From NCBI GenBank assembly GCA_947259005.1, contig CAMYKP010000013.1:1-64000 (forward strand): 64,000 nt of DNA, in the 5' to 3' direction. A program made the translations under genes and the position numbers. Position 1 is the first letter of the stretch. Every line of letters starts with the position of its first letter. Positions 39,039-62,604 of this stretch are shown piece after piece. This DNA is from an uncultured Parasphingopyxis sp. Lineage in GTDB: Bacteria > Pseudomonadota > Alphaproteobacteria > Sphingomonadales > Sphingomonadaceae. The notes beneath the pieces are model-generated. The model made no database searches. It worked only from the letters and a program-made list of their open reading frames with translations, and had not been told where the DNA came from.

Positions 39039-39049
39039 TAACCAAGTTA
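39039..39049. promoter_or_regulatory. Shared operator site 1 (TAACCAAGTTA)
   Basis: A one-mismatch version of the palindromic core TAACTAAGTTA, followed by TATATC. It lies in the divergent gap between the SDR gene (start 38981) and the MFS gene (start 39141). Confidence 0.65.
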
Positions 39050-39140
39050 TATATCTCTGACTGTGCGGACACAGTCAACGAATTTGGCGCCAGGCCGGTG
39101 AATCGAAAAAAACCGACTGTGCTGCGGAGAGGATTGGCGA

Positions 39141-40442
39141 ATGACGGATGCTGGCACTGCAGACCGGGCGATCCCGATATGGAATAGCATAGCGCCGTGG
39201 CGGCGCAATCTGACGCTGGGCCTGCTCTTTCTGGTCGCCGCCGTCAGCTATATAGACCGGCAGATTTTCACGCTGTTTCAGGACGATATCAAGTCCGAGC
39301 TCGGGCTTGATGACGGGCAACTCGGCATCCTGACCGGCTTCTCTTTCGCGCTCTTCTATGCGCTCGCTGCCTTCCCGATCGCACGCTATGCCGATCGCGG
39401 AGACCGCAGCCTGATCATTGCCCTGTGCGTTGCCTTCTGGAGTGCCGCGACGGTTGCCTGCGGCGCGGCGGCGAGCTTCACGCAGATGCTGCTCGCGCGA
39501 ATCGGCCTTGCCGCGGGGGAGGCCGGCGCCACACCTGCGGCCAACTCGCTGCTCGTCGAGATTTTCCCGCCGAACCGCCGAGTACTGGTGATATCGGCAA
39601 TGCTCGCCGCGAGTGCAGTCGGCCTTTCAGGCGGGCTCGCGCTCGCCGGATGGCTGTCGACCTTTTATGGCTGGCGGACCGTTTTCGTCATCGTCGGTGC
39701 TCCGGGCATCCTGCTCGGTCTGCTCGTCTGGCTGTTTGCAGCCGAGCCGCGCAAGGGCAAGGGTGCGCAATCCGTCGCAACGGTCAGCAAGCTTCGTCCG
39801 CTTGAAGTGGTACGCATCATGGCAAGTTCGACCTCGCTGCGCTGGACGGGCCTGCTGATGCTGTCCGTCCCGCTTTCCGGCTTTGCGATGATACTCTGGG
39901 GCGCATCCTTCTTCCGGCGTGTCCATGGGATGTCCGTTGCGGAAGTCGGCTTCTGGATGGGCGGGATGATGGCCGTCGGCCTCGTCCTCGGTAATCTGTG
40001 CGCCGGTTGGATCGGCGATCGCTACGGCACCGAGAATCCGCGCTTCAACGGCTGGCTGGCAGCCATCGGGCTGTTCACGGCCTTCCCTTTCGCCATGGCC
40101 TTTTGCTTCGTCGAAAGTCCCTATGTGGCGCTCGGCTGCTTTGTTTTCGTCAAGTTCCTGATGACCCTGTATCTCGGCCCGAGTATCGCGCTGTGCTTCG
40201 CCCAGGTGCCAGTTGCCATGCGCGCGATCATGTCGGCGACGATCAACATGTTCATCGGCATCGCGGGCACGGGCATCGGCGGGACGCTGGCCGGATATCT
40301 GAGCGCGGCGCTCGAACCGCGCCATGGTGACCAGTCGCTGCGATATGCGCTGGCCATCACTTCCACGGCGCTGCTGGTGGGGGGTGTCGCCGCGCTGATG
40401 GCCGGGCGTACGGCAAAAATTCTTCCCGAGAGCCTCAAATAG
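39141..40442 (+). CDS. MFS transporter, spinster-like group
   Basis: 433 aa, twelve-segment major facilitator. TM1 region: LGLLFLVAAVSYIDRQIFTLFQDDIKSELGLDDGQLGILTGFSFALFYA, with the YIDR motif typical of spinster-like and hexuronate-type MFS; loop 2-3 motif IARYADRGDRSLIIAL. It also has RIGLAAGEAGATPAANSLLVEIFPPNRR, common in this group. It probably imports or exports a carboxylic acid or related molecule of the adjacent pathway. ATG 39141 has GAGAGGATTGGCG upstream. A shared operator lies 90 bp upstream. It is convergent with the amidohydrolase gene. Confidence 0.93.
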   Translation: MTDAGTADRAIPIWNSIAPWRRNLTLGLLFLVAAVSYIDRQIFTLFQDDIKSELGLDDGQLGILTGFSFALFYALAAFPIARYADRGDRSLIIALCVAFWSAATVACGAAASFTQMLLARIGLAAGEAGATPAANSLLVEIFPPNRRVLVISAMLAASAVGLSGGLALAGWLSTFYGWRTVFVIVGAPGILLGLLVWLFAAEPRKGKGAQSVATVSKLRPLEVVRIMASSTSLRWTGLLMLSVPLSGFAMILWGASFFRRVHGMSVAEVGFWMGGMMAVGLVLGNLCAGWIGDRYGTENPRFNGWLAAIGLFTAFPFAMAFCFVESPYVALGCFVFVKFLMTLYLGPSIALCFAQVPVAMRAIMSATINMFIGIAGTGIGGTLAGYLSAALEPRHGDQSLRYALAITSTALLVGGVAALMAGRTAKILPESLK

Positions 40443-40445
40443 AAA

Positions 40446-40467
40446 CGGCCGGCGCAAAGGCCGGCCG
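40446..40467. terminator. Bidirectional hairpin between convergent genes
   Basis: CGGCCGG and CCGGCCG form a GC-rich stem with a CGCAAAGG-type loop in the 48-bp gap between the MFS and amidohydrolase stops. There is no T tract of note. Confidence 0.5.
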
Positions 40468-40490
40468 CTTCGAATGGTATGACGCCGGGT

Positions 40491-41606: not shown

Positions 41607-41827
41607 TCGGTCCTCCATCTAACAGCCCACAACTACGCTGTTGAGGGCGATTCGTAAATAGGTATCTTTTTAGATCTGAATAGGCACCTAAATTACTTCG
41701 GAAAAGGAAGGCATATCAAGAAAATGGCTAATTTCCGGGACATCAAGCCATGTGTGCAAAACTGCAACAGCCTGAAGAAAGCGCTCAATGGCCCCTTTCC
41801 TTCACCAAAAACCGGTGATAAGGAATT

Positions 41828-41838
41828 CAACTAAGTTA
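41828..41838. promoter_or_regulatory. Shared operator site 2 (CAACTAAGTTA)
   Basis: CAACTAAGTTATATAA, matching ten of eleven core bases of TAACTAAGTTA, about 55 bp upstream of the TonB receptor start. Confidence 0.7.
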
Positions 41839-41892
41839 TATAAGTGGGCAAACCCACATCACGAACTTTGGATTGGATACTGGGAGGGTAAT

Positions 41893-44268
41893 ATGAAATT
41901 CCGCAATTTTGGTGCTGGTAAATTCGCGCGTTGCGCATCGATTGGTGCCATCGCGACAGCTGCATTATCGATGCCGGCCTATGCGCAGGATTCCGGCGAT
42001 GCCGAAGTGCAGGATACCGTCGACCCCAATGTCATTCTCGTCATCGGCGTGACGCGCCAGGCGCAGGACATTCAGGAGGTTCCGACCACTATCACCGCCT
42101 TCAGCAGTGAGGACCTTGTCGAACAGGGTATCGTTTCGACCTCGGACATCGCGTCTTTCACTCCCGGCTTCAACATCCGAGCGTCGGGTAACAATCCGAC
42201 AGCATTCAACCTGTCGATGCGCGGGCAGATCCAGGTCGACAATATCGCGACGCTGGAGCCTTCGGTCGGCACCTATATCGACGACATGTATATCGGCCGC
42301 GCCTATGGCCTGAACACCAACCTGCTCGACATCCAGTCGGTCCAGGTGCTCAAGGGTCCGCAGGGTACGCTGTTTGGCCGCAATACTTCGGCCGGTGCGG
42401 TCGTCATAGAAACCGTCCAGCCCCAGTTCGATGAAATTTCGGGGATGGTTCGCGGAACCTATGGCCGTTTCGACCAGCGTGAAGCGGAGGCCGTAATCAA
42501 TCTCGGCTTCGACGATTTCGCGATCCGCGGCGGTTTTTTCTACGGCGCACGAGATAATTATCAAACTGATGTTGCATCGGGTGTTGGCTATGGCGAGCGC
42601 GAAACCATCAATGGCCGTATCCGTGTGGCGTGGCGTCCCGCCGACCCGCTGACCATAACGCTTTCGGGCGAATGGTATGACAGCGATATCAACGGTCCGG
42701 GCCGCCAGAATCTCTTCCTCAATGTCGGCGGCGGGGACCCGGCGGCGGCTGAGCGTGCCGTCCAGAATACCGACCGCGACTTTGTCGGCGTTTCGGACGT
42801 GACGACTTTCCCGGGCGCACCCGCGCAGGGACTGTTCAACGATATGGAAACCCAGACCTACATGCTGACCGCTCAGCTCGAGACCAGCTTTGGCGAGGTC
42901 AAGTTTATCGGTGGCTACCGGAATATCGTTGGCGCCAACCTTGTCGATCTCGATGGTTCGGCATTCCCGGCGCATTTCACCCAGGGCTTCCAGGACCTCG
43001 ACCAGCTGTCGGCGGAACTGCGCGCCACGGGCACAGGCTTTGACGATCTTATCGATTTCGCGGTCGGCTTCATTTATTTCAAGGAGAACGGCAACGATCA
43101 GTCGCGTTCGAGCCTTTTCGCCAGTCCGTCATGGAGCAATTTCAACGGTTTCATCAACAATGACAGCTTCGGTCTATACGGACAGGCAAATGTGCATGTG
43201 ACCGATCGCCTGTCGTTCACCGGTGGTTTGCGTTACTCGATCGACGACAAGGGCGTCACGGTGCAGTCGGCGGTCAATCCGTTCAACGGGCCGACACCGG
43301 TCGTCTGTCTGCCGACAAGCTTCAACTTCCCGCCTTCGGTGCCTGAAGATTGTGCCCGCGGCAGGTCCGATACCTTTACCAACCTGTCCTACACGTTCGG
43401 TGTCGACTTCCAGGCCACTGACGACATCCTGCTCTATGCGAAGCAAAGCCGCGGCTATCGTTCGGGCGTGCAGCAGCTGCGTTCGCTGAGTCTCACCGAT
43501 ACGACTCCGGCCCAACCGGAAATCGTCAACGAGCAGGAAATCGGTATCAAGACCCAATTCTGGGACGGACGCGCGACCTTCAACGTTGCGGGATTCCACA
43601 ACCGTGTCAGCAATGCCCAGCGCAGTCCCGTTTTCACGGTTAACGGCCAGAGCCAGACCATCATTGAAAGCGCCGGCACGGAAACATGGGGGATCGAAGC
43701 CGATATCTCTGTCGAGGTTGCAGACGGTTTCCACATTTTCGCCTCGGGCTCACTGATCGATCCGCGATACACGAGCTACAACGGCTTTGGTGTTGTGGGG
43801 GCTGCCGGCATGCAGCAGCTCGTAGCTGTCGACAAAAGCGACAACGCTTTTATCGGTATCGTGAACGAGCAGTTCACCGTAGGTGCCAGCTATGAGGCAG
43901 ATCTCGGAATCGGCCGCTTCAATGCCAATGTGGTCTATGCCTGGCAGGGCGAATATACGAATGCCGACACCCGGCCCGCGTTGTTCACCGCCGACCCGAC
44001 GACGGTGCCCGGCGGCCTCGGACTGACCCAGGCACAGGCTGCGCAGTTGCAGGACGCCCTGTTGACCAACTCGCTCGGCCTTCTCAATGCGCGTGCCTCG
44101 CTGTCTTTCGGACCGCAGGACAATTACGAGATCGCAGTCTGGGGGCGCAATATCCTCGGTGATCGCGAACCGCTCTACACGCTTCTGTTGAGCAATGTGT
44201 ATGTCGGATCCTCGTTCAACGAACCGTCCAGCTATGGCCTTACCTTCACGGCCAGGTTCGGCAACTAA
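41893..44268 (+). CDS. TonB-dependent outer-membrane receptor
   Basis: About 791 aa from ATG 41893 (GGGAGGGT upstream). A signal peptide (TAALSMPAYAQ) is followed by a plug domain with VPTTITAFSSEDL, FTPGFNIRAS and QSVQVLKGPQGTLFGRNTSAGAVVI, and a beta-barrel of repeated strands ending YGLTFTARFGN. It resembles the sphingomonad FecA/CirA-like uptake receptors of xenobiotic and terpenoid clusters, more than siderophore receptors, but the substrate cannot be told. It sits within the catabolic cluster and has the shared operator upstream. A terminator follows. Confidence 0.95.
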   Translation: MKFRNFGAGKFARCASIGAIATAALSMPAYAQDSGDAEVQDTVDPNVILVIGVTRQAQDIQEVPTTITAFSSEDLVEQGIVSTSDIASFTPGFNIRASGNNPTAFNLSMRGQIQVDNIATLEPSVGTYIDDMYIGRAYGLNTNLLDIQSVQVLKGPQGTLFGRNTSAGAVVIETVQPQFDEISGMVRGTYGRFDQREAEAVINLGFDDFAIRGGFFYGARDNYQTDVASGVGYGERETINGRIRVAWRPADPLTITLSGEWYDSDINGPGRQNLFLNVGGGDPAAAERAVQNTDRDFVGVSDVTTFPGAPAQGLFNDMETQTYMLTAQLETSFGEVKFIGGYRNIVGANLVDLDGSAFPAHFTQGFQDLDQLSAELRATGTGFDDLIDFAVGFIYFKENGNDQSRSSLFASPSWSNFNGFINNDSFGLYGQANVHVTDRLSFTGGLRYSIDDKGVTVQSAVNPFNGPTPVVCLPTSFNFPPSVPEDCARGRSDTFTNLSYTFGVDFQATDDILLYAKQSRGYRSGVQQLRSLSLTDTTPAQPEIVNEQEIGIKTQFWDGRATFNVAGFHNRVSNAQRSPVFTVNGQSQTIIESAGTETWGIEADISVEVADGFHIFASGSLIDPRYTSYNGFGVVGAAGMQQLVAVDKSDNAFIGIVNEQFTVGASYEADLGIGRFNANVVYAWQGEYTNADTRPALFTADPTTVPGGLGLTQAQAAQLQDALLTNSLGLLNARASLSFGPQDNYEIAVWGRNILGDREPLYTLLLSNVYVGSSFNEPSSYGLTFTARFGN

Positions 44269-44280
44269 GCGCTTCGGATT

Positions 44281-44335: not shown

Positions 44336-44349
44336 CATTTGACGGGGCG

Positions 44350-45177
44350 ATGGAAAACCAGCATCTCGACTGCATGATATCCGAGACGCCCGACGATGAA
44401 TTCGGCGACGAAGACGGGGACGGCGCCGAGACGCCAAGATCCCGTCGACCGTCGCAGGTCCAACGCATCGTCCGCAGGCTTTTCGAACTCAGCATGGACA
44501 GTGAGGAAGGCGGGTTTCTGGGTTCCGAAGCCGAACTGCTAGACCGGCTGGGCGTCAGCCGGCCAACGCTGCGCCAAGCGGCCAAGATTGTTCAGAGCGA
44601 CCAACTGTTAGAAATCCGCCGGGGCGCGGGTGGCGGTTTTTTCGCCGCGCGACCGGACGCGAAACATGTTGTCCAGCGCCCGGCCTTCTATCTGAGGATG
44701 CAGGGGGCAACGCTCCAGCAGATGCGCGAGGCGAGCGCCGCGATCCTGCCGGAGGTCACGGCCGGTGCGGCATTATGTGGAAACGGCACACTGATCGACG
44801 CGCTCGAGGCGCTGAAGGATGAATTGACGGCCATGGGAGACCCCACGCCTTCAACGCGCCAGATCATCGATCTTGAACGGCGGCTGTCGCGCCTGGTCGC
44901 TGAAATGACATCCAACCCGTTTCTCAGCCTGTTCATGGACATATTGTTCGAATTCGGCCTGCTCGAACGAAATTTGCGATTCTATGACGGTCACTCGAAC
45001 CGTCGCCAGGATTGGTTCGATCTGCAACTTGGCCTGTGCGATGCCTTGATTGCCGGCGATCCCGAACAGGCCCGCGATATCTCGCGTCGGCGCTCCAAGC
45101 TGATTGAGCATTGGATCGCCGACGACTTGCCTCCCTCGGTGCGGATCGTCCGCAGGACCAAGCGCCGGCTCGATTGA
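44350..45177 (+). CDS. GntR-family regulator, first of two
   Basis: 275 aa. An acidic N-terminal extension is followed by a winged helix-turn-helix: FLGSEAELLDRLGVSRPTLRQAAKIVQSDQLLEIRRGAGGGFF. The C-terminal part is helical, similar to the FCD ligand-binding domain of the FadR subfamily but divergent (no clear metal site). It probably binds an acyl-CoA or acid of the pathway. It is the first gene of a six-gene plus-strand operon and is the best candidate, with the second GntR, for binding the repeated TAACTAAGTTA palindrome. Confidence 0.87.
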   Translation: MENQHLDCMISETPDDEFGDEDGDGAETPRSRRPSQVQRIVRRLFELSMDSEEGGFLGSEAELLDRLGVSRPTLRQAAKIVQSDQLLEIRRGAGGGFFAARPDAKHVVQRPAFYLRMQGATLQQMREASAAILPEVTAGAALCGNGTLIDALEALKDELTAMGDPTPSTRQIIDLERRLSRLVAEMTSNPFLSLFMDILFEFGLLERNLRFYDGHSNRRQDWFDLQLGLCDALIAGDPEQARDISRRRSKLIEHWIADDLPPSVRIVRRTKRRLD

Positions 45178-45190
45178 CGAGGAAGCAGAT

Positions 45191-49647: not shown

Positions 49648-51192
49648 TCAGGCGCCAGCCCGGGCCCAATAGTCGTCGCGCAATTTCTTCTTGTAGAGTT
49701 TTCCCGTGTCGTGGCGGGGCAGCTGCTCCATGAAATCGATGCTGCGCGGGCATTTGACCGAGGACAGCCGCTCACGGCAGAAGGTATCGAGTTCCGCGGC
49801 AAGCGCCTCTCCCGCTTCGGACCAGTTCTCGGGCTGGATCACGGCTTTGACCTCTTCGCCGAAATCCGGATTGGGGACGCCGAACACAGCAACATCCGAG
49901 ACTTTCGGATGAAGGATCAGCATATTCTCTATCTCCTGCGGATAGATGTTCACGCCCCCTGAAATGATCATGAAACTTTTGCGATCGGTGAGATACAGAT
50001 AGCCCTCCGCATCGATCCGCCCGATATCGCCCAGTGTAGACCAGCCTTCGTGGCTGGCATGGCGGGCGGCTTGCGTCTTTTCGGGGTCGTTCAGATATTC
50101 GAAGCGGTTGCCTCCGCTGAAATAGATCGCCCCGGTTTTGCCGGGTGGCAGTTCGTTGCCGTCCTCGTCGCAGATATGGATCTGGCCCGTCCGGGTACGT
50201 CCGACCGATCCGGGATGTGCCAGCCATTCCTCGGGCGTGATGAAGGTCGATCCGCCACCCTCGCTGCCGCCATAATATTCGTAGATTATCGGCCCCAGCC
50301 AATCGAGCATCTGCTGTTTGACGGGGACGGGACAGGGGGCCGCCGCATGGACGACCTGTTTAAGCGAGGAGAGATCGTAGCGCTTGCGCACGGCCTCGGG
50401 CAGCTTCAGCAGGCGAACGAACATTGTCGGGACGAGCTGGGAAAAAGTGACGCGATATTTTTCAACCGCGGCGAGCCAAGCTTCGGCGTCGAATTTCTCC
50501 ATGACAATGACGGTGCCGCCGGTGCGCTGGACAGTTGTGGAGTACATGAGCGGAGCGGTGTGATAGAGAGGTGCGGGTGACAGATAGACGGTGTCCGTCG
50601 ATAATCCGTATGCTGCCGCGACCATAGGTGCGAAGGGCGGATCGCCATCGACCGGACCTTCAGGCAGTGCGATCCTGACACCCTTGGGCCTCCCTGTCGT
50701 GCCGGAGGAATAGACCATGTGAAAGCCCGGGCTTTCATCGGCAATCGGCGTTTCCGGCCATTCTGCGCAGCTTTCCTCCCAGTCGGGGACGCCGGCAAGA
50801 CCGGAGAGACCAAACACGGTATCGACATCCGGGATCAGCGCATCACGCTCCGCAACCAGCCTTTCGGCCGTCACGCCAACACCTGCCGAAAGGAGCAGCG
50901 CCTTGGCTGCGCTGTCATTGACTATATAGGCGGCTTCATCCGGCGTCAGCCGGGTCGATATCGGCGTAATGAACAGGCCGGCGCGCTGGGCTGCCCAATA
51001 GGCGGTGAAGAATTCGGGCCGGTTCTCGATCATGAGCGCGACCGCATCGCCGCGCGTCAGCCCCCGGTCGCGCAGCAGATGTGCGCCGCGATTGGCCCGT
51101 GCCTCAAGCTCGCCATAGCTCAGGCACTCGCCACTGCCCGCCATGATGGCGGCGGCGTGACCGGGTCTGTCGAGATGATTGCGTGGATACAT
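49648..51192 (-). CDS. AMP-forming acyl-CoA ligase
   Basis: 514 aa. The adenylation signature MVYSSGTTGRPKGVR is present, with YEYYGGSEGG, GYLYLTDRKSFMIISGGVNIYPQEIE and the C-terminal catalytic Lys region VKCPRSIDFMEQLPRHDTGKLYKKKL. This activates a carboxylic acid as CoA thioester via acyl-AMP. It is the likely entry enzyme of the pathway. ATG 51192 has GGAAGGAAG upstream. It is divergent from the acyl-CoA dehydrogenase gene, with the perfect operator palindrome in between. Confidence 0.95.
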   Translation of the reverse strand: MYPRNHLDRPGHAAAIMAGSGECLSYGELEARANRGAHLLRDRGLTRGDAVALMIENRPEFFTAYWAAQRAGLFITPISTRLTPDEAAYIVNDSAAKALLLSAGVGVTAERLVAERDALIPDVDTVFGLSGLAGVPDWEESCAEWPETPIADESPGFHMVYSSGTTGRPKGVRIALPEGPVDGDPPFAPMVAAAYGLSTDTVYLSPAPLYHTAPLMYSTTVQRTGGTVIVMEKFDAEAWLAAVEKYRVTFSQLVPTMFVRLLKLPEAVRKRYDLSSLKQVVHAAAPCPVPVKQQMLDWLGPIIYEYYGGSEGGGSTFITPEEWLAHPGSVGRTRTGQIHICDEDGNELPPGKTGAIYFSGGNRFEYLNDPEKTQAARHASHEGWSTLGDIGRIDAEGYLYLTDRKSFMIISGGVNIYPQEIENMLILHPKVSDVAVFGVPNPDFGEEVKAVIQPENWSEAGEALAAELDTFCRERLSSVKCPRSIDFMEQLPRHDTGKLYKKKLRDDYWARAGA

Positions 51193-51283
51193 GATCTTCC
51201 TTCCGATCAGCTCGCCGACCCCCTATTCTCCGGTTCGTCGAACCTGCTTCCATGCCCGAAAATCTCCGGATCACCATCATGTT

Positions 51284-51300
51284 GTCTAACTAAGTTAGAC
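51284..51300. promoter_or_regulatory. Shared operator site 3, perfect 17-bp palindrome
   Basis: GTCTAACTAAGTTAGAC is perfectly symmetric around the central A. It lies between the ligase (start 51192) and the acyl-CoA dehydrogenase (start 51462). The overlapping TTGTCTAACTA fits the TNGTNNNACNA pattern reported for the FadR subfamily of GntR regulators. Confidence 0.8.
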
Positions 51301-51461
51301 ATGATAGGCAAGGCAGCGATTGGGTTTCAGGGGAGGTGCCACCGGGCTGAAAAGTCACGAAAAGGGCATCTTCCTGCAAGGTAAACTGAGTTGATACGCA
51401 ATGCCGAAATGGACGGCGCCGTCTGGCGTCGGACCAGCGGGACAATAGGAAGGATTTCGCG

Positions 51462-52625
51462 ATGAGTGTTTTGGGAGTGGCCGAACCTGAATTCATGTCT
51501 GACGAGGAGATCGCGATCTTCAACGATGCAGTCGGTAAGTTCTTCGATCAGCATGCGCCTGAAAAGCGTCTCAAAACCTGGGAAGAAAATGGCCAGTGCG
51601 AGCGTGATTTCTGGCGTGAGGCCGGCCAGGCCGGATTGCTCGGTGTTTCCGTACCGGAAGAATTTGGCGGGCATGGGGGCGATTTTCGTCATGACATGGT
51701 TGTCGTCAACCAGACCGCTGCCAAGGGCGCGATCGGTTTCAATGCTTCGCTGCACAATGTCATCTGTGTGCCCTATATCGTTCGCTACGGCACGGACGAG
51801 CAGAAGAAGCGCTGGCTCCCCAAAATGGTTTCCGGCGAGCTCGTTACCGCCATCGCGATGAGTGAACCGGGCGCTGGCAGCGACCTTCAGTCGGTTTCGA
51901 CAACCGCGATCAAGGACGGCAACGGCTATCGCATAAACGGTTCGAAAACCTTCATCTCGAATGGCCAGGTCGCCGATTTCATCATCGTCGTCGCCAAGAC
52001 CGATCCGAACGAAGGGGCCAAGGGTATCTCGCTCATGTGCCTGGAAACCGAAGGTGCCGACGGTTTCGAGCGTGGTCGCAAGCTAGACAAGATCGGCCTT
52101 GATGCCTCCGACACGTCCGAGCTGTTCTTCGACAATGTCTTCGTGCCCGGCGAAAATGTTCTCGGTAACGTTGAGGGCCAGGGCTTTTACCAGCTGATGG
52201 GAGAGCTCGGTCAGGAACGACTGCTGATCGCAATGGGCGCCGTGGGTACGATCGAACGGGCACTCGAAGCGACGCTGGACTATGTCAAACAGCGCAAGGC
52301 GTTCGGCAAGACGGTCTGGGATTTCCAGAATACCCAGTTCGTGCTCGCGGATCTCAAGGCCAAGGGAGCTGCGGCAAAGGCACTGGTCAACGATTGCATC
52401 GCCCGGCACCTGAAGGGCGAACTCGATCCCGCCACCGCGGCGAGCGCCAAATATTGGTGCACCGAATTGCAGGGCGAGGTTGTCGACAAATGCCTGCAGT
52501 TCCATGGCGGCTGGGGCTATATCAACGAATATCCGATCGCCCGGATGTATCGCGACAGTCGTATCACGCGCATCTTTGGCGGCTCGAACGAGATCATGAA
52601 GATGCTGATCGCACGAAGCATGTAG
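51462..52625 (+). CDS. Acyl-CoA dehydrogenase, LCAD-like
   Basis: 387 aa, complete ACAD. Motifs: TAIAMSEPGAGSDLQSV, GSKTFISNGQVADF, LGQERLLIAMGAVGTIERALEATLDYVKQRKAFGKTVWDFQ, FHGGWGYINEYPIARMYRDSRITRIFGGSNEIMKMLIAR. It resembles human LCAD in the helix G segment, where the catalytic Glu lies, and has FGGSNE where MCAD has YEGT. ATG 51462 follows AGGAAGGA. It is read from the divergent promoter with the perfect operator. It may do the first dehydrogenation of the acyl-CoA made by the ligase. Confidence 0.94.
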   Translation: MSVLGVAEPEFMSDEEIAIFNDAVGKFFDQHAPEKRLKTWEENGQCERDFWREAGQAGLLGVSVPEEFGGHGGDFRHDMVVVNQTAAKGAIGFNASLHNVICVPYIVRYGTDEQKKRWLPKMVSGELVTAIAMSEPGAGSDLQSVSTTAIKDGNGYRINGSKTFISNGQVADFIIVVAKTDPNEGAKGISLMCLETEGADGFERGRKLDKIGLDASDTSELFFDNVFVPGENVLGNVEGQGFYQLMGELGQERLLIAMGAVGTIERALEATLDYVKQRKAFGKTVWDFQNTQFVLADLKAKGAAAKALVNDCIARHLKGELDPATAASAKYWCTELQGEVVDKCLQFHGGWGYINEYPIARMYRDSRITRIFGGSNEIMKMLIARSM

Positions 52626-52727: not shown

Positions 52728-53528
52728 TTACCGAAGGTCGAACTTTTTCGCCTTGTCAGCCATCAGCGTGGCGCGATCAACCTGCGACGTGCCCAGCGGA
52801 TTGCCGAGCAGGCAATATTGAAGACCCGTGGACAGCGCCACGGTCCGTGGCAGGTCTAGCGATTGCCAGATTGCCTTGAGCGAACCCTGTGTTGCCGCAG
52901 TTGGTTTGGCCGCTATGATTTTTGCGAGTTCCGCAGCGCGATCATGGAGCTTCTCGAGCGGCAGGACCTCGCTGACAATGCCTATGCGCTTGGCGGTTTC
53001 GGCGGAAATGCGTTCGTCATTGCCGAGCAGCACCATGCGCAACACGTCTCCGAGCGGCATTTTATAGGTCGCGCCGATCGGCTCGAGAGCGCTTGTCATG
53101 CCATAAGTAACATGCGGATCGAAAAAGGTCGCATCTTCGGAACAAATGACGATGTCGCACTCGTTCAGCCAGTAGAAGGCGCCGCCGGCCGCCATGCCGT
53201 GAACTGCGCACACGACTGGCTTCCAGCAGTTGTTCGCCTTGGGCCCCAGCTTGTTTCCGGGGTCCTCTGCATTCCAGGGATCGTCGATGACGACCTCTCC
53301 GCCGGGCTCGCGCGCAGCCTTGACGTCGACCCCTGTGCAGAAGGCGCGGCCGGGCGCCGCTTTCAGAACTACGCAGTGAATATCATCGTCAAAACTGACC
53401 TTCGCCCATACATCTGCGAACTCATCCATCATCTGCCGGGTGAAGCTGTTCATTGCTTCGGGCCGATTGATCGTTATCGTTGCGACATGGTCGGATGTTT
53501 CAAACAACAGGGTGTTATAATCGGCCAT
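52728..53528 (-). CDS. Crotonase-family protein, both catalytic Glu absent
   Basis: 266 aa with crotonase fold: ATITINRPEAMNSFTRQMMDEF and AFCTGVDVKAARE. The helix positions read GGAFYWLNECDI and FDPHVTYGMTS, with neither catalytic glutamate of hydratases. The oxyanion hole is kept, so it may be a hydrolase, isomerase or decarboxylase-like enzyme. It is divergent from the second GntR gene, with a degenerate shared operator in the gap. Start ATG 53528. Confidence 0.9.
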   Translation of the reverse strand: MADYNTLLFETSDHVATITINRPEAMNSFTRQMMDEFADVWAKVSFDDDIHCVVLKAAPGRAFCTGVDVKAAREPGGEVVIDDPWNAEDPGNKLGPKANNCWKPVVCAVHGMAAGGAFYWLNECDIVICSEDATFFDPHVTYGMTSALEPIGATYKMPLGDVLRMVLLGNDERISAETAKRIGIVSEVLPLEKLHDRAAELAKIIAAKPTAATQGSLKAIWQSLDLPRTVALSTGLQYCLLGNPLGTSQVDRATLMADKAKKFDLR

Positions 53529-53558
53529 GACAATTTCTCTCCACGCAGTTAGAATAGT

Positions 53559-53569
53559 TAACTAGGTGA
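53559..53569. promoter_or_regulatory. Shared operator site 4 (TAACTAGGTGA)
   Basis: Two mismatches from TAACTAAGTTA; followed by TATATC like site 1. Between the crotonase (53528, minus) and GntR (53637, plus) starts. A degenerate site. Confidence 0.5.
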
Positions 53570-53636
53570 TATATCCACAAACCGAACGCAGCAAGCTAGT
53601 CTCTTGGTCCGGTGTTCGAACAGGCAGAGTATAACG

Positions 53637-54452
53637 ATGGCAAAACCAGCTTCTCACGAAAACCTCCGGAGCGATAGTCCTCTTGCACCAAGGCCGAACG
53701 AACGGCCGCTGCGCGTTCCCAAGACCGCCGAAATTGTCGCCGACAGCATTCGAAAGCGAATCATACAGGGTGAGCTAAAGGAAGGCGATTCGCTGCCGCC
53801 CGAAGCGCAGCTGATAGAGACATTCTCGATTTCCCGGCCAACCTTGAGGGAGGCATTCCGTATCCTCGAGGCCGAACGCCTCATCAATGTCGTGCGCGGA
53901 TCCCGGTCCGGTGCCCGTGTCCATCAACCGCGAGTCGAAAGCGTTTCGCGTTATGCGAGCTTCGTCCTCCAGGCATCAGGCATCACCGTTGCCGACATCT
54001 ACGAGGCGCGTCTCGCCATTGAACCTTATGCGGTTCGGCAACTTGCGCAAAAGCGGCCCAAAAAGGGAATTGAGCGGATGCGTGCCGAAGTCGACCGCCT
54101 GAACGTTCTGGTCGATGAGGGGCGCTACACCGAATTCATCATCGGCGTCGCCGAATTCCATCGCCTGATGGTTGAAGTGGCGGGTAACGAGACGCTCCAT
54201 TTTCTTACCCGCGTGCTCCAGGAAGTCATCGAGCAGTTTCAGGTCCGCCACCTCTCAATGTATCCGCGGGATCCGGGGGAGCAGAAAAAAAGTTCGCTCG
54301 CAGGTGTCCGGTCCTTCCATAAACTCATCGCCCTGATCGAAGCGGGCGATGCAGCCGAGGCCGAGGAACATTGGCGGTTGCACCTCACCAATGCCAACAG
54401 GACCTGGGCGATCGACCGGACTCTTTTGGAGGTCCTTACCGCAGCCGATTGA
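53637..54452 (+). CDS. GntR/FadR-subfamily regulator, second of two
   Basis: About 271 aa from ATG 53637. The winged helix-turn-helix is GELKEGDSLPPEAQLIETFSISRPTLREAFRILEAERLINVVRGSRSGARVHQP. The FCD domain follows: LAIEPYAVRQLAQKRP, GVAEFHRLMVEVAGNETLHFLTRVLQEV. This is the standard FadR-subfamily layout, where FCD binds acyl-CoA or organic acids. The sites around this gene carry the shared operator, so autoregulation and control of the adjacent hydratase operon are likely. Its closest GntR in the window is at 44350, but they are not close paralogues. Confidence 0.92.
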   Translation: MAKPASHENLRSDSPLAPRPNERPLRVPKTAEIVADSIRKRIIQGELKEGDSLPPEAQLIETFSISRPTLREAFRILEAERLINVVRGSRSGARVHQPRVESVSRYASFVLQASGITVADIYEARLAIEPYAVRQLAQKRPKKGIERMRAEVDRLNVLVDEGRYTEFIIGVAEFHRLMVEVAGNETLHFLTRVLQEVIEQFQVRHLSMYPRDPGEQKKSSLAGVRSFHKLIALIEAGDAAEAEEHWRLHLTNANRTWAIDRTLLEVLTAAD

Positions 54453-54510
54453 TCCCTTCGCCACACAGACGAACCCGTCCAAGGTGGGTTGCCCCGATCT
54501 CTGACATAGT

Positions 54511-54521
54511 ATACTAAGTTA
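54511..54521. promoter_or_regulatory. Shared operator site 5 (ATACTAAGTTA)
   Basis: ATACTAAGTTAGAC, nine of eleven core bases plus the GAC flank of the perfect site. It lies between the GntR stop and the MaoC-like hydratase start at 54576. Confidence 0.65.
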
Positions 54522-54575
54522 GACATCAAGTGGGCCTGCTCTCCTTTGCAGTGCCTTGTGGAGAGGATCGTCATA

Positions 54576-55877
54576 ATGAGCAGTAAGGATGCAGCTCCGT
54601 CCCGCGCGGAAACACTGAAGCAAAGCGAAGAGTGGAAAAAGGCGGTCGAGTACGAGATTACCGACCATGACATCGAGCGCCAGAAGAAGCTGCTGGGGCA
54701 TATGCAGGCTGCCAAGACGCGCGAATACAACCAGACCGCGACGATCGACAATATTCGCAACTTTGCCCATGGCTGCGGCGATGACAATCCGCTGTTCTGC
54801 GATCCCGATTACGCCGCCGGTACGCGCTGGGGATCGGTGATCGCGCCAGGCATGATGGCCGGCATTCTCAACAAGCCGATGAAGGGCGATCCCGTACCCG
54901 ATGAAATCAGGGCGCTGAGAAAGAGCCTGTTCAAGGGCGTTCACGTCTTTGTCTCGGGATCGAAATGGGATTTCTACCGGCCGATTCTCCCGGGCGACAC
55001 GATCTACAGCTATAATGGCGACGAAACCTGCGAGGTGAAGCAGTCTGAATTTTCGGGTCGTTCGGTCATTGCCGTGCGCAAGGATGTCAAAGTCAATCAG
55101 CGCGGCGAGGTCGTTGCGGTTTATCGTATCCTGCGCGTCCTTACCGAACGCAAGACGGCCGCCAAGAAGGGCAAATATTCGGCTATCGAACCGGCGGAAT
55201 ATACCGATGAGGATATCGCAAAGATCGATGAGGTCTATGCGAACGAAAAGGTGCAGGGCGGCGAGCCCCGCTATTTCGAGGATGTTTCGGAAGGCGACTC
55301 TCTGGGCAACATGGCCAAGGGTCCGTTGACCGTTACGGATGTCATCTGCTTCCATTCGGGCGGCTACGGGTTTGTGCCCTACGCACCTACCGTCGGCCGT
55401 CTGGCCTATAAGAACCGGACACGTATCCCGGCCTTCTACATCAAGAACGAGCATGGCGTACCGGACGTCGCCCAGCGGCTCCACTGGGACCCGGTCTGGG
55501 CCCAGGCGATCGGCAATCCGATGGCCTATGATTATGGTGTAATGCGTGAGAATTATCTCTGGCACTATCTCAGCGACTGGGCCGGCGACGATGGCATCAT
55601 CACCCATGTCCATGACGAGATTCGCAAGTTCAACTATATGGGCGACACCCAGTTCGTTACCGGCGAAGTGACGGGCAAGCGCGAGGAAGGCGGGCAGGCG
55701 CTGGTCGACGTCGCGGTGCGCTTCACCAATCAGCGCGGCGATGAAACCGTCAAGGCGACAGCGACGATTGCCCTGCCGAAAAAGCAGGGTCTCGCAATGT
55801 ATCCAGAGGTGCCGCGCGATCTTGCCGAGGAAGCAGCTCGGATGATGGCGCGACACTGGGAACTGTCGAAGAAATAG
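54576..55877 (+). CDS. Double-hotdog MaoC-type hydratase
   Basis: About 433 aa from ATG 54576 (GAGAGGATC upstream). The N-terminal half is a FAS1/MaoC-like dehydratase domain (TREYNQTATIDNIRNFAHGCGDDNPLFCDPDYA, with the hydratase D and H/N region), and a second hotdog follows in the C-terminal half (PRYFEDVSEGDSLGNMAKGPLTVTDVICFHSGG). Double-hotdog hydratases of this length act on bulky or CoA-linked enoyl substrates. It would provide (R)-specific or cyclic enoyl-CoA hydration beside the crotonases. It starts a four-gene unit after operator site 5. Confidence 0.9.
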   Translation: MSSKDAAPSRAETLKQSEEWKKAVEYEITDHDIERQKKLLGHMQAAKTREYNQTATIDNIRNFAHGCGDDNPLFCDPDYAAGTRWGSVIAPGMMAGILNKPMKGDPVPDEIRALRKSLFKGVHVFVSGSKWDFYRPILPGDTIYSYNGDETCEVKQSEFSGRSVIAVRKDVKVNQRGEVVAVYRILRVLTERKTAAKKGKYSAIEPAEYTDEDIAKIDEVYANEKVQGGEPRYFEDVSEGDSLGNMAKGPLTVTDVICFHSGGYGFVPYAPTVGRLAYKNRTRIPAFYIKNEHGVPDVAQRLHWDPVWAQAIGNPMAYDYGVMRENYLWHYLSDWAGDDGIITHVHDEIRKFNYMGDTQFVTGEVTGKREEGGQALVDVAVRFTNQRGDETVKATATIALPKKQGLAMYPEVPRDLAEEAARMMARHWELSKK

Positions 55878-55909
55878 GGCAAACCCCTCCCACAAAGCGA
55901 GAGGTGGCT

Positions 55910-56811: not shown

Positions 56812-57602
56812 GTGAATTCAAAGATATAGAAACCGGAATAGAAAACGGCATCGGCACGGTGAGCATTGCCCGCGGTGATGCGAACAACACCGTTCGCCCG
56901 CAAACCTTGCGTGAAATCTGCGAGGCGCTCGATATGCTGATGGCCGACGAAGCGGTCAAAACAATCGTGCTGCGAGGCGATGGCCGGCATTTTTCGGCAG
57001 GCGCCGATTTCGGTTTCCTGGAGGAACTGACATCGACCCCGGCCGCACAGATCAAATCGACCATCTACACCCATTTCCAGGGCGCGGCGAAGCGGCTCTA
57101 CCATTGCCCCAAGCCGACTGTCGCGCTGGTGCAGGGCGCTGCGGTGACGGTCGGCTGCGAACTGACACTCGCCTGCGATTTCCGGATCGCCGCCGAGGAT
57201 GCGATGTTCCAGGAAAGCTGGATAAATCTAGGCATCATGCCGCCGCTCGGCGGTACCTTCCTGTTACCCCGCATCGTCGGCCTGGCGCGGGCCAAGGAGA
57301 TGTGCCTGCGCGCACGACGGGTGAAGGCGGCCGAAGCGCTCGATATCGGGCTGGTATCGGAAGTCGTGGCGAACGATGCACTCGATGAGCGAGGTCGCGA
57401 ATTGGCAACCGAGCTCGCCGCCATGGCGCCGCTTGGCTATGCTGCGATCAAGGAGGCCCTGCACCGCGGACTCGAAACCGGGATGGAGGCGGAATGGACC
57501 GCTAATGTGGCCAATCAGGCAATCCTGATCGACAGCCAGGATTTCGGGGAAGGGCTCGATGCGGTAAAGGCCCGGCGCAAGCCCGAATTCAAGGGGCGCT
57601 AA
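56808..57602 (+). CDS. Crotonase-family protein
   Basis: 264 aa from a TTG at 56808 (overlap TTGA with the small ORF). Crotonase fold with GIGTVSIARGDANNTVRPQTL and RHFSAGADFGFL (Ala in place of the usual Cys before the oxyanion Gly). Helix positions are VGCELTLACDF (first Glu kept) and MFQESWINLGIMPPLGG (second Glu position is Trp by alignment). Likely an enoyl-CoA isomerase or hydratase variant. It ends convergent with the lipocalin-like gene. Confidence 0.88.
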   Translation: MSEFKDIETGIENGIGTVSIARGDANNTVRPQTLREICEALDMLMADEAVKTIVLRGDGRHFSAGADFGFLEELTSTPAAQIKSTIYTHFQGAAKRLYHCPKPTVALVQGAAVTVGCELTLACDFRIAAEDAMFQESWINLGIMPPLGGTFLLPRIVGLARAKEMCLRARRVKAAEALDIGLVSEVVANDALDERGRELATELAAMAPLGYAAIKEALHRGLETGMEAEWTANVANQAILIDSQDFGEGLDAVKARRKPEFKGR

Positions 57603-57608
57603 CCTCTT

Positions 57609-58664
57609 TCAACCAGATCGCTCGTCATGGCCATAGCCGATCTCGCCATCCCACACATAACGGGCGATCGCCTGCTTCATGAGCACGCCCGCATTGCCGT
57701 CTCTCGCATAGACGGGCGGCATGCCGGCCGCTGGTGCGCCCCATTCCGGCATCGACCAATAAAAGGCGCGGATATCCTCGCCCTCAATATCTATCATGCC
57801 ATGTGCGTCGGTGGCGAGCTGGAGCCAGTATTTCCCCTCGTTGAGATCGCGGTGCGTGCGGGGAAACTGCAGGATGCGCGCGGGTTCCAGATGCTTGCCA
57901 TCGGTTATATGGGCTTCTGAGAACAGGTAGCGCCCGTCATCGCCGATATTGACGAGTACGCCAAAGCCCCGGCCGCTTGGAAACAGGCCACTCATCCAGC
58001 AGGTTCCCGCCATGCCGTTGAGATCGCGGCTGCCACGGACATGGCAGCGCAGGCCGACGCCGTTGAAATCCATCACCTCATCGCCGGCCCTAACCTTGCC
58101 CGTCACGCGCACAAGCTGGTCGTAGCGGAAGCAATCAGGGTGCATACCCTTGCTCGTGCGGGCCGCGATCCACAGACCCGCCGGCCCTTCCATCCCGTGC
58201 CGTGCTTCGGTCGTCAGCGTACCGTTGCACCATGCGGGTGCCGCGCATTCGCTTTCAAAGTCGACTGAAAAGGCCGTGACGGGCGCTTCGTCGGCAACGT
58301 TTCCATGAGCCTGGTCGCTGTCCGACGTGGCAAAGGCGGGCAGATTGTCGACCGTGTAGGCCCAGCGATGGAAGGGTTCGATGCACCGATAGGAGATATG
58401 CGCACTGGAGGGTGCCGCGCCGTCCGTTACCCGGCCCGGATCGTCGTGCCGCCGACGCAGGATTTTCCCGCCAGGAAGGAACAGGGTCGCGCCGCCGGCC
58501 ATCGCGCCGTCCTTGATCTGCGGATGAAGATTGAGCCCGATGTCGCGCTCCGCGTCATACGCCCAGAAGTTCATCGTCTCGGCGACGCCCGGATCGTCGG
58601 GAAAGGGTCCGGTCAACGCGTAATCCTGCTCCGGCACCAAGCCGGCTGAAAAGGCGTCCGTCAT
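57609..58664 (-). CDS. Lipocalin-like / AttH-CrtC-like protein (tentative)
   Basis: 351 aa, no signal peptide. The sequence has features of the beta-rich AttH/CrtC-like (carotenoid hydratase) fold: AGGATLFLPGG, HRWAYTVDN, RYDQLVRVTGKVRAGDEVMDFNGVGLRCHVRGSRDL, GRGFGVLVNIGDDGRYLFSEAHI. The DFNGVGLRCHVRGSRD stretch is the most distinctive. Related genes are common in sphingomonad catabolic clusters with no known activity. It is the last gene of the minus operon, overlapping the sulfotransferase stop (ATGA). The family call is uncertain. Confidence 0.6.
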   Translation of the reverse strand: MTDAFSAGLVPEQDYALTGPFPDDPGVAETMNFWAYDAERDIGLNLHPQIKDGAMAGGATLFLPGGKILRRRHDDPGRVTDGAAPSSAHISYRCIEPFHRWAYTVDNLPAFATSDSDQAHGNVADEAPVTAFSVDFESECAAPAWCNGTLTTEARHGMEGPAGLWIAARTSKGMHPDCFRYDQLVRVTGKVRAGDEVMDFNGVGLRCHVRGSRDLNGMAGTCWMSGLFPSGRGFGVLVNIGDDGRYLFSEAHITDGKHLEPARILQFPRTHRDLNEGKYWLQLATDAHGMIDIEGEDIRAFYWSMPEWGAPAAGMPPVYARDGNAGVLMKQAIARYVWDGEIGYGHDERSG

Positions 58665-59827: not shown

Positions 59828-60252
59828 CGCGACACCATTGGCCTGTTGAGGCTCGTGCTGGACTGCCAGTCGATCCGTACCTGCCGGTGTGCGACCAGCC
59901 ATTCACCGGCGTGACGCGTGTAACGATCGATATAGACGCCGCTGTGATCGATTCCGGCATTTGTGACGACGAAGAAATAGATGCGGCCGGTGGCATCGTC
60001 TGCATCCTCGCCGGGCAGGATCTGCATCGTCGTCAGATGGTGGCGGGTCAGGGTAAGGTCCGGGTTGCGCTCTCCAGCGCCCAGAGCCTCGATGATGCCC
60101 CTGCGGCCAGCCCCACGGCGGCCGGGAAATTCGAGAATACCATCGGGCGCAAAACAGGCGGCGAGATCGTCGATGCGCGCGCGATCGCCTGCAATATTGT
60201 ATCGGGTTACGAGCGAGCGGATTGCCGCGAAATCGTGGGGCGGCAGGGTCAT
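59824..60252 (-). CDS. NTF2-like (SnoaL) protein
   Basis: 142 aa, SnoaL/NTF2-like alpha+beta cone. The pattern FAAIRSLVTRYNIAGDRARIDDLAACFAPDGILEFPGRRGAGRRGIIEALGAG, HHLTTMQILP and YIDRYTRHAGEWLVAHRQVRIDW is typical of this family. Members are isomerases, dehydratases or hydroxylases on steroids, terpenoids and aromatics, or non-catalytic. Asp/His residues that could serve as catalysts are present. It is sandwiched between SDR and sulfotransferase genes with four-base overlaps. Confidence 0.9.
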   Translation of the reverse strand: MTLPPHDFAAIRSLVTRYNIAGDRARIDDLAACFAPDGILEFPGRRGAGRRGIIEALGAGERNPDLTLTRHHLTTMQILPGEDADDATGRIYFFVVTNAGIDHSGVYIDRYTRHAGEWLVAHRQVRIDWQSSTSLNRPMVSR

Positions 60253-61136
60253 TCTCCGCTGCTCTTCCGTACGAATTTCAGGCCCTGATTCAGCGTCCAG
60301 TCCCCTTCCGGATCACGTACCCAGCCCGATGCGGCCCAGGTGCCGCCGTCGACCGGCAGGATCGCTCCCGTGATGTAGCTGGCCAGGGGCGAACAGAGAA
60401 ATGCTGCGGCGTCGCCGCACTCCATGTCGACGCCTTCACGGCCCAGCGGGATCAGCCGGTTCATGGCATCCTGCGCTTCGGGTTCGGGTTCGGTCCAGCT
60501 CGCCTCATCCACGGCTCCCGATCGGTTGCCGCGCGTTCCGGGCGTCACGGTGTGATCGGGCGCTATGCAATTGACCCGAATCCCATGTTCGGAAAGTTCG
60601 GCCGCCATGGTCCGGGTGAAGCTGTTCATCCCGGCCTTGCATGCAGCATAAACTGCGAAATTGGGGGCGGCGCGTGCCGCTTCTATGCTTGAGACATTGA
60701 TGATCGAGCCGCCGCGCCCTCCCGCGATCATCTCTGGTGCCGCTGCCGAGACTGCCGCCAGCATGCTGACCAGATTGATGTCGATATGTCGTCTCCAGCT
60801 GCGCTCGCTCTGTTCGAGAAAGGGGCGTCCACTGACCCCTCCGGCATTGTTGACGAGAATGTCGATCCGTCCGAAGCGCTGCTTGGTCTCGGCAACAAGG
60901 GTACGGATTTGATCGCTGTCCATTACGTCGGTTGGACAGGGCAGGGCCTCGCCGCCCAGAGCAAGGATGCGTGCCGCCACTTCCTCGCAGCGTTCGGGAA
61001 TGATGTCGGCAATTGCGACATGCGCACCGGCCTCGGCCAGTCGCAGGGCAATCGCCCTGCCGATGCCGCCACCGCCGCCGGTGACGATTGCCACCTGCCC
61101 TTCGAGGCTTAGCCGGTCCGCCAGATTGTTGCCCAT
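60249..61136 (-). CDS. SDR-family oxidoreductase
   Basis: About 295 aa from ATG 61136 (GAGGAAGA upstream). The cofactor fold is AIVTGGGGGIGRAIALRLAEAG, NAG motif VNNAGGVSG, active site SSIEAARAAPNFAVYAACKAGMNSF with the canonical YxxxK, and end FLCSPLASYITGAILPVDGG. It is a normal NAD(P)-dependent dehydrogenase, likely a 3-hydroxyacyl-CoA or alcohol dehydrogenase of the pathway. The longer ORF in the track is intergenic noise. It overlaps the NTF2-like start by four bases. Confidence 0.94.
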   Translation of the reverse strand: MGNNLADRLSLEGQVAIVTGGGGGIGRAIALRLAEAGAHVAIADIIPERCEEVAARILALGGEALPCPTDVMDSDQIRTLVAETKQRFGRIDILVNNAGGVSGRPFLEQSERSWRRHIDINLVSMLAAVSAAAPEMIAGGRGGSIINVSSIEAARAAPNFAVYAACKAGMNSFTRTMAAELSEHGIRVNCIAPDHTVTPGTRGNRSGAVDEASWTEPEPEAQDAMNRLIPLGREGVDMECGDAAAFLCSPLASYITGAILPVDGGTWAASGWVRDPEGDWTLNQGLKFVRKSSGE

Positions 61137-61168
61137 TCTTCCTCGATCCTTTCCCGGGAAAGGCTGGT

Positions 61169-61672
61169 TCAGTCGTTGAGGCCGATCCCCATAACCGCAC
61201 CGGTTACATATGCCGCATAGTCGCTCAGCAGATAGGCTGCCATCCGGCCGAGCGCCGGGCCGTTTTCGTTGGTGAGAATTGTGTTCACGCGGACGCCGTC
61301 GCGCGCCCATTCGACTGCAATCGATTTGGTGAGGTTGCCGAGCGCGCCCGCAGCCGCCGCCTGATCGGCACCTGCCTGCTGTTCGGGCGTGCCGACAAAA
61401 AGGATGGCGCCGCCGCGTTGCGCAGAACGCGCGGCCTCGTTGAACAGTTTGGCGGCCTCGAACCGGTCGTCGAGACCGGCGTGCATCGCCGCCCGCCATT
61501 CACCGTGCGTGATATGGTGTGCCAGCTTTGGTGCAGGCGCGCGCGCGATATGGACAAGGCAGTCGCTCTCGCCTTCCTGTACCAGTATCGCGCCCGCTTC
61601 CTCCAGCGCTGCGGCGATGGCCGGATCTTCGCCGATCAGCTGCACCGTTTTTCCGTCGAGCCAGCCGGTCAT
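61169..61672 (-). CDS. Degenerate SDR-like protein
   Basis: About 167 aa from ATG 61672, much shorter than other SDRs (about 250). The nucleotide motif is lost: it starts GWLDGKTVQLIGEDPAIAAAL, with no TGxxxGxG. The catalytic Tyr/Lys are also absent (GADQAAAAGALGNLTKSIAVEW). The rest keeps the SDR helix and end, RVNTILTNENGPALGRMAAYLLSDYAAYVTGAVMGIG. It overlaps the SDR at 61669 (ATGA) and ends 32 bp from the next. Intact frame and coupled position argue for a functional non-catalytic partner rather than a pseudogene. Confidence 0.75.
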   Translation of the reverse strand: MTGWLDGKTVQLIGEDPAIAAALEEAGAILVQEGESDCLVHIARAPAPKLAHHITHGEWRAAMHAGLDDRFEAAKLFNEAARSAQRGGAILFVGTPEQQAGADQAAAAGALGNLTKSIAVEWARDGVRVNTILTNENGPALGRMAAYLLSDYAAYVTGAVMGIGLND

Positions 61673-62550
61673 TTCCACCCCCACGGCCCGTCTTCGCGTT
61701 CGCGTGGCGGTACGAAGTCGGGCATCATCAGCGAACGGCGCAGAGATTCGCCGCCGTCCTGAAGGATCACCTGACCGGTCAGTCCCTCCATTAGCGGCGA
61801 ACATAGCAGGGCCGAAAGCCAGCCGAATTCATATGTCTGCCCGGTCCGGCCGGCCGGGATCATATTCTGCAGCGGCGAGATCGCTTCGGCACCGTTGCCG
61901 CTGGTTGAACTTTCATGCGGGAAGAAACCGGCGGCGACGGCATTGACGCGGATACCGAGTGGCGCCCAGTCTTCGGCAAGCTTGCGAGTCATCGTCGCCT
62001 GCGCAGTCTTGGCGGCGGCGGAATGCGCGTCACCCGGAAAGCCCGTCCATATATATTGCGCGCTGTTGTTGATGATCGCGCCGCCCCGTCCGGCCTTTTC
62101 CCTGCGGCGTGCGAATTCGGCCGAGCACAGGAACGTACCGTCGATCGCGATCCGCGTGACGGCGTTCCAGGCGTTCATCGACATATTTTCGGTCAGCACC
62201 GGGAAGTTGGCGCCGGCATTGTTGGCAAGCAGCGACACGGGGCCGATTGCGGCCTCGGTCGCATTGAAGGCCTGAGTTATCTGGTCGGGGTCGCGAACGT
62301 CGCAGCTCGTGGCGTGAACCGGAACGCCGAGCGCGGCGATTTTCGATGCGCCTTCCTCGGCGCGTTCGATGGAGCGGCCCATCACGCCGACGGCCGCCCC
62401 GCCTTGCGCGAAGGCGATAGCCATGGCCAGCCCCATGCCCGATCCGCCGCCTGTCACCAGCACGGTGTGGCCGGCGAATATGTCGGAAGGATATGGTGGC
62501 CGCTCGAAAGGCGGCGGCTCCGGGACAATGTGATGGGCGGGAACCGGCAT
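61669..62550 (-). CDS. SDR, 2,4-dienoyl-CoA reductase-like, paralogue of 45970 gene
   Basis: About 293 aa from ATG 62550 (a TTG at 62571 also in frame). Cofactor fold: VLVTGGGSGMGLAMAIAFAQGG; it keeps DECR-like AHSAAAKTAQATMTRKLAEDW without the canonical Tyr. The C terminus GESLRRSLMMPDFVPPRE matches the SLVMPEFVPIRDQ end of the 45970 gene, so the two are paralogues. Operator site 6 is 44 bp upstream. It may reduce a second dienoyl-CoA in the pathway. Confidence 0.9.
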   Translation of the reverse strand: MPVPAHHIVPEPPPFERPPYPSDIFAGHTVLVTGGGSGMGLAMAIAFAQGGAAVGVMGRSIERAEEGASKIAALGVPVHATSCDVRDPDQITQAFNATEAAIGPVSLLANNAGANFPVLTENMSMNAWNAVTRIAIDGTFLCSAEFARRREKAGRGGAIINNSAQYIWTGFPGDAHSAAAKTAQATMTRKLAEDWAPLGIRVNAVAAGFFPHESSTSGNGAEAISPLQNMIPAGRTGQTYEFGWLSALLCSPLMEGLTGQVILQDGGESLRRSLMMPDFVPPREREDGPWGWK

Positions 62551-62593
62551 GCAATAGACTTGCAAAGACAAGGCGGCTTAGTCAAGAGATAAT

Positions 62594-62604
62594 GAACTAA
62601 GTTA
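62594..62604. promoter_or_regulatory. Shared operator site 6 (GAACTAAGTTA)
   Basis: GAACTAAGTTATATAAC, ten of eleven core bases with the TATATAA flank of site 2. It lies between the SDR start at 62550 and the upstream SDR stop at 62639, so the downstream genes have their own promoter. Confidence 0.7.

Follow-up and report, generated by a model that had tools for sequence, protein, structure and literature searches.

The stretch analysed here (the window) comprises the first 64,000 nucleotides of contig CAMYKP010000013.1 (C13), the left half of a 125-kb contig in the 2.45-Mb, 84%-complete genome assembly GCA_947259005.1 of an uncultured Parasphingopyxis species. It carries part of a catabolic gene island with genes for short-chain dehydrogenases (SDRs), an MFS transporter, a TonB-dependent receptor, an acyl-CoA ligase, an acyl-CoA dehydrogenase (ACAD), several hydratases and two regulators, here termed GntR-A and GntR-B (Table 1). 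A short palindrome recurs upstream of these genes. A first-pass annotation of the window had listed six copies, had proposed them as the operator of one or both GntR regulators, and had read the locus as a single regulon. Our analysis indicates that the palindrome is very probably the operator of GntR-B (53637-54452), which is the predicted controller of the whole island.

Allowing at most one mismatch, TAACTAAGTTA is found at 39039, 41828, 51287 and 62594 of the window, giving 5 strand-matches where 0.03 are expected; none of 100 shuffles matched this count, and the earlier judgement that six copies would be unlikely by chance is borne out. All six listed sites exist, with those at 53559 (TAACTAGGTGA) and 54511 (ATACTAAGTTA) each departing from TAACTAAGTTA by two bases, their flanks conforming. 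The perfect palindrome previously placed at 51284 is real and extends to 19 bp around an unpaired central base (51283-51301, TGTCTAACTAAGTTAGACA). The list was incomplete, however, as five further sites lie on the same contig beyond the window, at C13:70466, 74251, 84745, 87052 and 91899. All eleven sites are intergenic, although intergenic DNA makes up only 5% of the region, and 26-170 bp separate the centre of each from the start codon it faces; divergent gene pairs flank six of the eleven. The sites had been described as lying within or just upstream of the starts of cluster genes. All are in fact upstream, but the one at 62594 serves the leftward gene 61669-62550, and the rightward neighbouring gene ends there.

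A scan of the whole genome with at most one mismatch returned nine sites, eight of them on C13 (39039-87062, 48 kb of 2.45 Mb; binomial probability about 2e-13) and one on contig C7. The motif is concentrated in the locus, then, and not spread over unrelated promoters. The C7 site (C7:240484, TAATTTAGTTA) scores below threshold when its flanks are included, and was taken as a chance match. Scores were obtained with a symmetric 27-bp matrix trained on the genome's own eleven sites, which score 24.9-36.5 with this matrix, while the rest of C13 reaches at most 9.1. Because this matrix is self-trained, two controls were added. Leave-one-out matrices gave 17.2-35.1 for the sites and no more than 7.8 for the remainder of the 125-kb contig, and a matrix built from other genera only ranked exactly the eleven C13 sites first (19.3-36.9; next 7.1). 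On shuffled DNA, the own-genome matrix produced one match in 4.1 Mb. A control with the reversed pattern is a poor null here, because the motif contains stop codons and is itself depleted in coding DNA.

The sites also follow GntR-B from genome to genome. Only a few of 151 genomes of the family carry GntR-B, and in these the motif is found next to it: in the genus Pontixanthobacter (g40) before an ACAD-gntR operon and between enoyl-CoA hydratase and thiolase genes, in genome G143 before gntR, and in genome G058 at four promoters. A scan of 84,980 species yielded 77 named loci. With the own-genome matrix, 104 sites turned up in 0.98 Mb around the 57 GntR-B orthologues that are at least 50% identical, 50 of which have a site nearby; sites were also found at five of eight loci with a GntR-B of 46-50% identity, and at two of twelve with 40-46% (two weak sites). 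When a strict pattern was applied to 301 family genomes, ten contained at least two sites and all ten carry GntR-B; single strict sites elsewhere in this set fall mostly in genomes without it. The concentration seen here is repeated in relatives, with 10/10 sites (at most two mismatches) of Novosphingobium kunmingense lying within 72 kb of 3.5 Mb, and 11/11 of Novosphingobium sp. FKTRR1 confined to two contigs, in a genome of 5 Mb. Sites recur at orthologous promoters: in Sphingopyxis and Novosphingobium they precede the orthologues of SDR 61669 and of the gene for nitronate monooxygenase, and in Pontixanthobacter those of ACAD 51462 and thiolase 87107. Many genera have a site immediately upstream of gntR-B or its operon.

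Further afield, an 850-kb plasmid of Sphingomonas paeninsulae (NZ_CP032828.1, 469521-510219; locus L115) holds a related island whose GntR-B is 64% identical; its six sites are weaker (15-20), and it also carries an integrase and two genes of the AtuA family. Near GntR-B homologues of 46-48% identity, a strong motif match (25.0) lies on the Rhodococcus rhodochrous plasmid NZ_CP083975.1 (L116:6675), and a perfect TAACTAAGTTA scoring 17.1 lies in a gammaproteobacterial metagenome-assembled genome (L113:9844). The occurrence of strong matches near GntR-B homologues outside the Alphaproteobacteria raises the possibility that the operator code predates the sphingomonads. A search for exact-word palindromes near distant homologues in Pseudomonas, Streptomyces and Massilia found none; the same search also failed to recover the known motif from the positive set, and its result therefore carries no weight.

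The features of GntR-B itself are those of a FadR-subfamily regulator. Its Pfam matches are to GntR (5.1e-17; 61.7 bits, cut-off 27) and FCD (1.2e-20; 74.7 bits, cut-off 24.3), and its AlphaFold model (pLDDT 89) has the FCD-GntR fold, matching NanR, the LldR protein CGL2915, VanR and FadR, with NanR the best match by both sequence and fold. Site-bearing orthologues share an almost invariant helix-turn-helix (HTH). Many, though not all, FCD domains hold an Asp/His/His/His metal site. In the GntR-B clade, H175 and H249 are nearly invariant and the Asp and third His are not conserved, residue equivalence being taken from the NanR alignment only. This apparently incomplete set of metal ligands would fit an acyl-CoA or another metal-free ligand.

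GntR-B is favoured as the reader because the sites co-occur with it, while GntR-A, the TetR-type protein encoded at 68282 and the LysR-type protein encoded at 91934 are missing from several site-bearing genomes. The earlier choice of one or both GntR proteins can be narrowed accordingly: of the two, only the regulator at 53637 accompanies the sites in every case examined. Reading by GntR-A (44350-45177), alone or together with GntR-B, is in our view unlikely, even though its gene belongs to the TonB operon downstream of Operator 2, and it has a recognition helix (SRPTLRQA) nearly the same as that of GntR-B, and is present where the large cluster is (Sphingopyxis PET50, Novosphingobium and Sphingobium). 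It is missing from Pontixanthobacter, Altererythrobacter and genomes G039, G122 and G143, which have GntR-B and sites; its GntR-domain match is weak (29 bits), and its first helix is shortened. GntR-A cannot be the general reader, therefore, but may act as a second one. We consider it very improbable that a TetR (68282, 95405) or LysR (91934) protein reads the motif in the manner of KstR in mycobacterial steroid catabolism. Palindromes of the form AAC..GTT are also typical of KstR, and TetR 68282 is kept in site-bearing Sphingopyxis loci. It is absent, however, from eight whole genomes with GntR-B, most of them with sites and Pontixanthobacter included; 12 GntR-B genomes with sites lack an orthologue of LysR 91934, and TetR 95405 occurs in only one of 57 site-bearing loci (checked within loci only).

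Two explanations without any regulator are less credible still. The sites are palindromic and repeated, and an IS240-type transposase (36544-37191) is encoded nearby, as might be expected if they were copies of a small repeat, mobile or structural (a terminator or REP-like element, for example). Likeness between sites ends at about 27 bp, however, and their sequences are divergent; they are always upstream of genes, never between convergent genes, and are kept at orthologous promoters in other genera, which makes this reading extremely improbable. Both the motif core and, as a rule, intergenic DNA are rich in A and T, but chance enrichment of such a word is excluded by the shuffles, the whole-genome counts, the relatives-only matrix and the 301-genome control, and we assign it a negligible probability.

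Several points weigh against GntR-B as the reader. No site at threshold was found in the DNA examined at loci L050, L055, L057, L059, L060, L062 and L089, several of which are on short contigs. Many of the relatives are closely akin, so that the co-occurrence counts are not independent, and another, unlinked regulator with exactly the same genome distribution may read the sites. The core of the proposed operator is AC-N3-GT instead of the GT-N3-AC described for nearly all sites of the subfamily (PMC4494728). Finally, the promoter predictions that suggest repression rather than activation are weak.

Granting GntR-B as the reader, the following mechanism can be proposed. A GntR-B dimer would bind each palindrome over or beside the core promoter and repress the operon or divergent pair, until the FCD domain takes up an acyl-CoA or carboxylic acid intermediate of the pathway and GntR-B leaves the DNA; repression, inducer binding and release is the standard order of events for the FadR subfamily. 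With the operons switched on by this release, the cell would take up a steroid- or terpenoid-like compound through the TonB and MFS proteins, activate it with CoA, oxidise it by means of SDRs and further enzymes, and break it down by beta-oxidation or aldolytic cleavage. GntR-B would also control its own gene through the site at 53555, where a promoter-like ATGACA-17-TAGAAT is predicted with its -10 box directly upstream of Operator 4. Because predicted -10 boxes end just before the operator at gntR-B, the AMP-ligase gene and thiolase 87107, repression by blocking of the start region is suggested. In genera with small regulons such as Pontixanthobacter, GntR-B would govern only the acyl-CoA dehydrogenase-gntR operon and the enoyl-CoA hydratase/thiolase pair. 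The reading of the locus as a single regulon is supported, and with eleven sites the regulon is larger than had been claimed.

Table 1. Predicted operators, target genes and regulators in the window (window coordinates).
Feature	Position	Strand	Sequence, placement or predicted role	Leave-one-out score
Operator 1	39035..39053		TATCTAACCAAGTTATATA; between divergent SDR (38187-38981, -) and MFS transporter (39141-40442, +) genes; 0 mismatches to extended pattern	34.1
Operator 2	41824..41842		Upstream of TonB-dependent receptor gene preceding GntR-A; 60 bp to start codon	21.5
Operator 3	51283..51301		TGTCTAACTAAGTTAGACA; between AMP-ligase (-) and acyl-CoA dehydrogenase (+) genes	29.0
Operator 4	53555..53573		Between enoyl-CoA hydratase (-) and GntR-B (+) genes; predicted autoregulatory site	17.2
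Operator 5	54507..54525		Upstream of MaoC-type hydratase gene 54576-55877	25.9
Operator 6	62590..62608		Upstream of leftward operon, first gene SDR 61669-62550	27.6
SDR	38187..38981	-	Predicted target	
MFS transporter	39141..40442	+	Predicted target	
TonB-dependent receptor	41893..44268	+	Predicted target	
GntR-A, second divergent FCD regulator	44350..45177	+	Accompanies large cluster, not small regulons; possible secondary reader	
AMP-forming acyl-CoA ligase	49648..51192	-	Predicted target; FadD4/bile-acid-ligase-like (below family cut-offs)	
Acyl-CoA dehydrogenase	51462..52625	+	Predicted target; Pontixanthobacter orthologue shares one operon with GntR-B	
Enoyl-CoA hydratase	52728..53528	-	Predicted target	
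GntR-B, FadR-subfamily (FCD) regulator	53637..54452	+	Predicted operator reader (Pfam, AlphaFold model, co-occurrence with sites)	
MaoC/FAS1-type dehydratase	54576..55877	+	Predicted target; followed by enoyl-CoA hydratases 55910-56704 and 56808-57602	
SDR	61669..62550	-	Predicted target; heads leftward set with 61169-61672 and 60249-61136; site-bearing in Sphingopyxis and Novosphingobium	

The other genes behind sites on C13 encode acyl-CoA dehydrogenases, a thioesterase, a nitronate-monooxygenase-like protein, a thiolase, a DUF2889 protein and APH-family proteins, and a site also precedes the genes for a ChsH2/Ltp2-like pair, a lipid-transfer-type thiolase and its OB-fold partner, whose best solved relative is 6ok1. 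CYP101-related P450s are encoded within the island, and the typical ring-cleavage set of the 9,10-seco pathway was not found among the genes scanned. The regulon would serve the CoA-based catabolism of a steroid- or terpenoid-like compound, an assignment of substrate that we make with low certainty. Several of the encoded proteins have unusual arrangements: a single 408-aa protein (C13:84773-85999; L011:4774-6000) joins an alpha/beta hydrolase to an HsaB-like flavin reductase, and two acyl-CoA dehydrogenases are tandem-fused in one 777-aa protein (C13:76185-78518; L010:16186-18519), which several separate heterodimer-like pairs adjoin. Two OB-fold/thiolase-like pairs of the ChsH2/Ltp2 type (C13:83056-84715 and 96144-97720) are present in this sphingomonad. 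A conserved 351-aa protein (window 57609-58664) has no Pfam match, and its orthologues in Parasphingopyxis and Sphingorhabdus loci are 56-73% identical.

Immediately left of Operator 1 lies a gene for an IS240/IS6-type DDE transposase (window 36544-37191), and neither GntR-B nor clustered sites occur in five further genomes of the genus. Because of these two observations, the island may have been acquired. On this analysis, an unannotated 50-kb catabolic island found in many environmental sphingomonads becomes a single regulon for which a candidate regulator can be named and an operator defined; a reporter could therefore reveal the inducer and, through it, the substrate.

Operators of the FadR subfamily follow the consensus TKGT-N3-ACMA, which is typical with exceptions, GT-N3-AC being present in nearly all sites, and an Arg at HTH position 28 (FadR Arg-35) is the usual partner of the operator G/C, a frequent but not strictly defining feature (Suvorova et al. 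2015, PMC4494728). GntR-B resembles the subfamily in its GntR HTH and all-helical C-terminal FCD domain, in a predicted operator that is a symmetric palindrome (19-27 bp here) centred on 3 bp, with T at -5 and A at +5, and in the organisation of its regulon, with similar start-codon spacing, single sites in divergent pairs and a site before the regulator's own gene (PMC4494728). In contrast, GT and AC have changed places within an unchanged register, and the Arg-35 equivalent is replaced in the whole GntR-B clade. The conserved letters are TAAC-N3-GTTA, with A at -3 in 99% and C at -2 in 100% of 95 sites from relatives, an invariance that comes partly from selection, these sites having been picked with the own-genome matrix. 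HTH position 28 is Ala-57 in GntR-B, and Gly, Ala, Ser, Thr or another non-Arg residue in all aligned relatives. From these alignments we infer that the geometry of the FadR-subfamily operator has been retained and that its base code differs. NanR and BioR are precedents within the subfamily for sites outside the GT/AC rule, but NanR binds direct repeats of TGGTATAW and BioR binds TTATMKATAA, neither of them AC-N3-GT, and their regulons concern sialic acid and biotin (PMC4494728). GntR-B offers a clean test case for a change of DNA specificity in the FadR subfamily, with the spacing the same, GT/AC exchanged and the common Arg lost.

In mycobacterial cholesterol catabolism, controlled by KstR and KstR2, palindromic AAC..GTT operators are typical of KstR, a TetR-type protein. 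The likeness, one of organisation and not of compared sequences, lies in a single palindromic operator used throughout a large island with ACADs, a ChsH2/Ltp2-type aldolase, CoA ligases and P450s; the candidate here is instead an FCD-GntR protein, and TetR 68282 does not co-occur with the sites. The bile-salt side-chain clusters of Sphingobium Chol11 and Caenibius tardaugens (PMC8399759, PMC12882949) similarly combine acyl-CoA-based degradation of polycyclic compounds with a CoA ligase, heteromeric ACADs and an amidohydrolase. The regulators named there are AraC, TetR and Lrp proteins, however, with no GntR, and bile-acid-degrading sphingomonads are reported to be without Sal2/Ltp2 homologues (PMC8399759); no Ltp2-type aldolase is reported for that group, whereas the present locus has two OB-fold/thiolase-like pairs. 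Full-text searches with the letters of the motif found no regulatory use, and the open literature on GntR proteins with steroid or sphingomonad catabolism (RegPrecise and subscription papers lying outside the search) did not describe this regulon or operator. Catabolic islands controlled by a FadR-subfamily regulator through a single operator are a known kind of system; the present regulon and operator did not turn up in the open literature searched. We see about an even chance that GntR-B founds an FCD clade with an exchanged code in Sphingomonadales, Caulobacterales, some Gammaproteobacteria and perhaps Rhodococcus, running a widespread and uncharacterised catabolic island for a steroid- or terpenoid-like substrate that grew stepwise from two to eleven operators; the two- to eleven-operator series across genera would then show how such a regulon grows.

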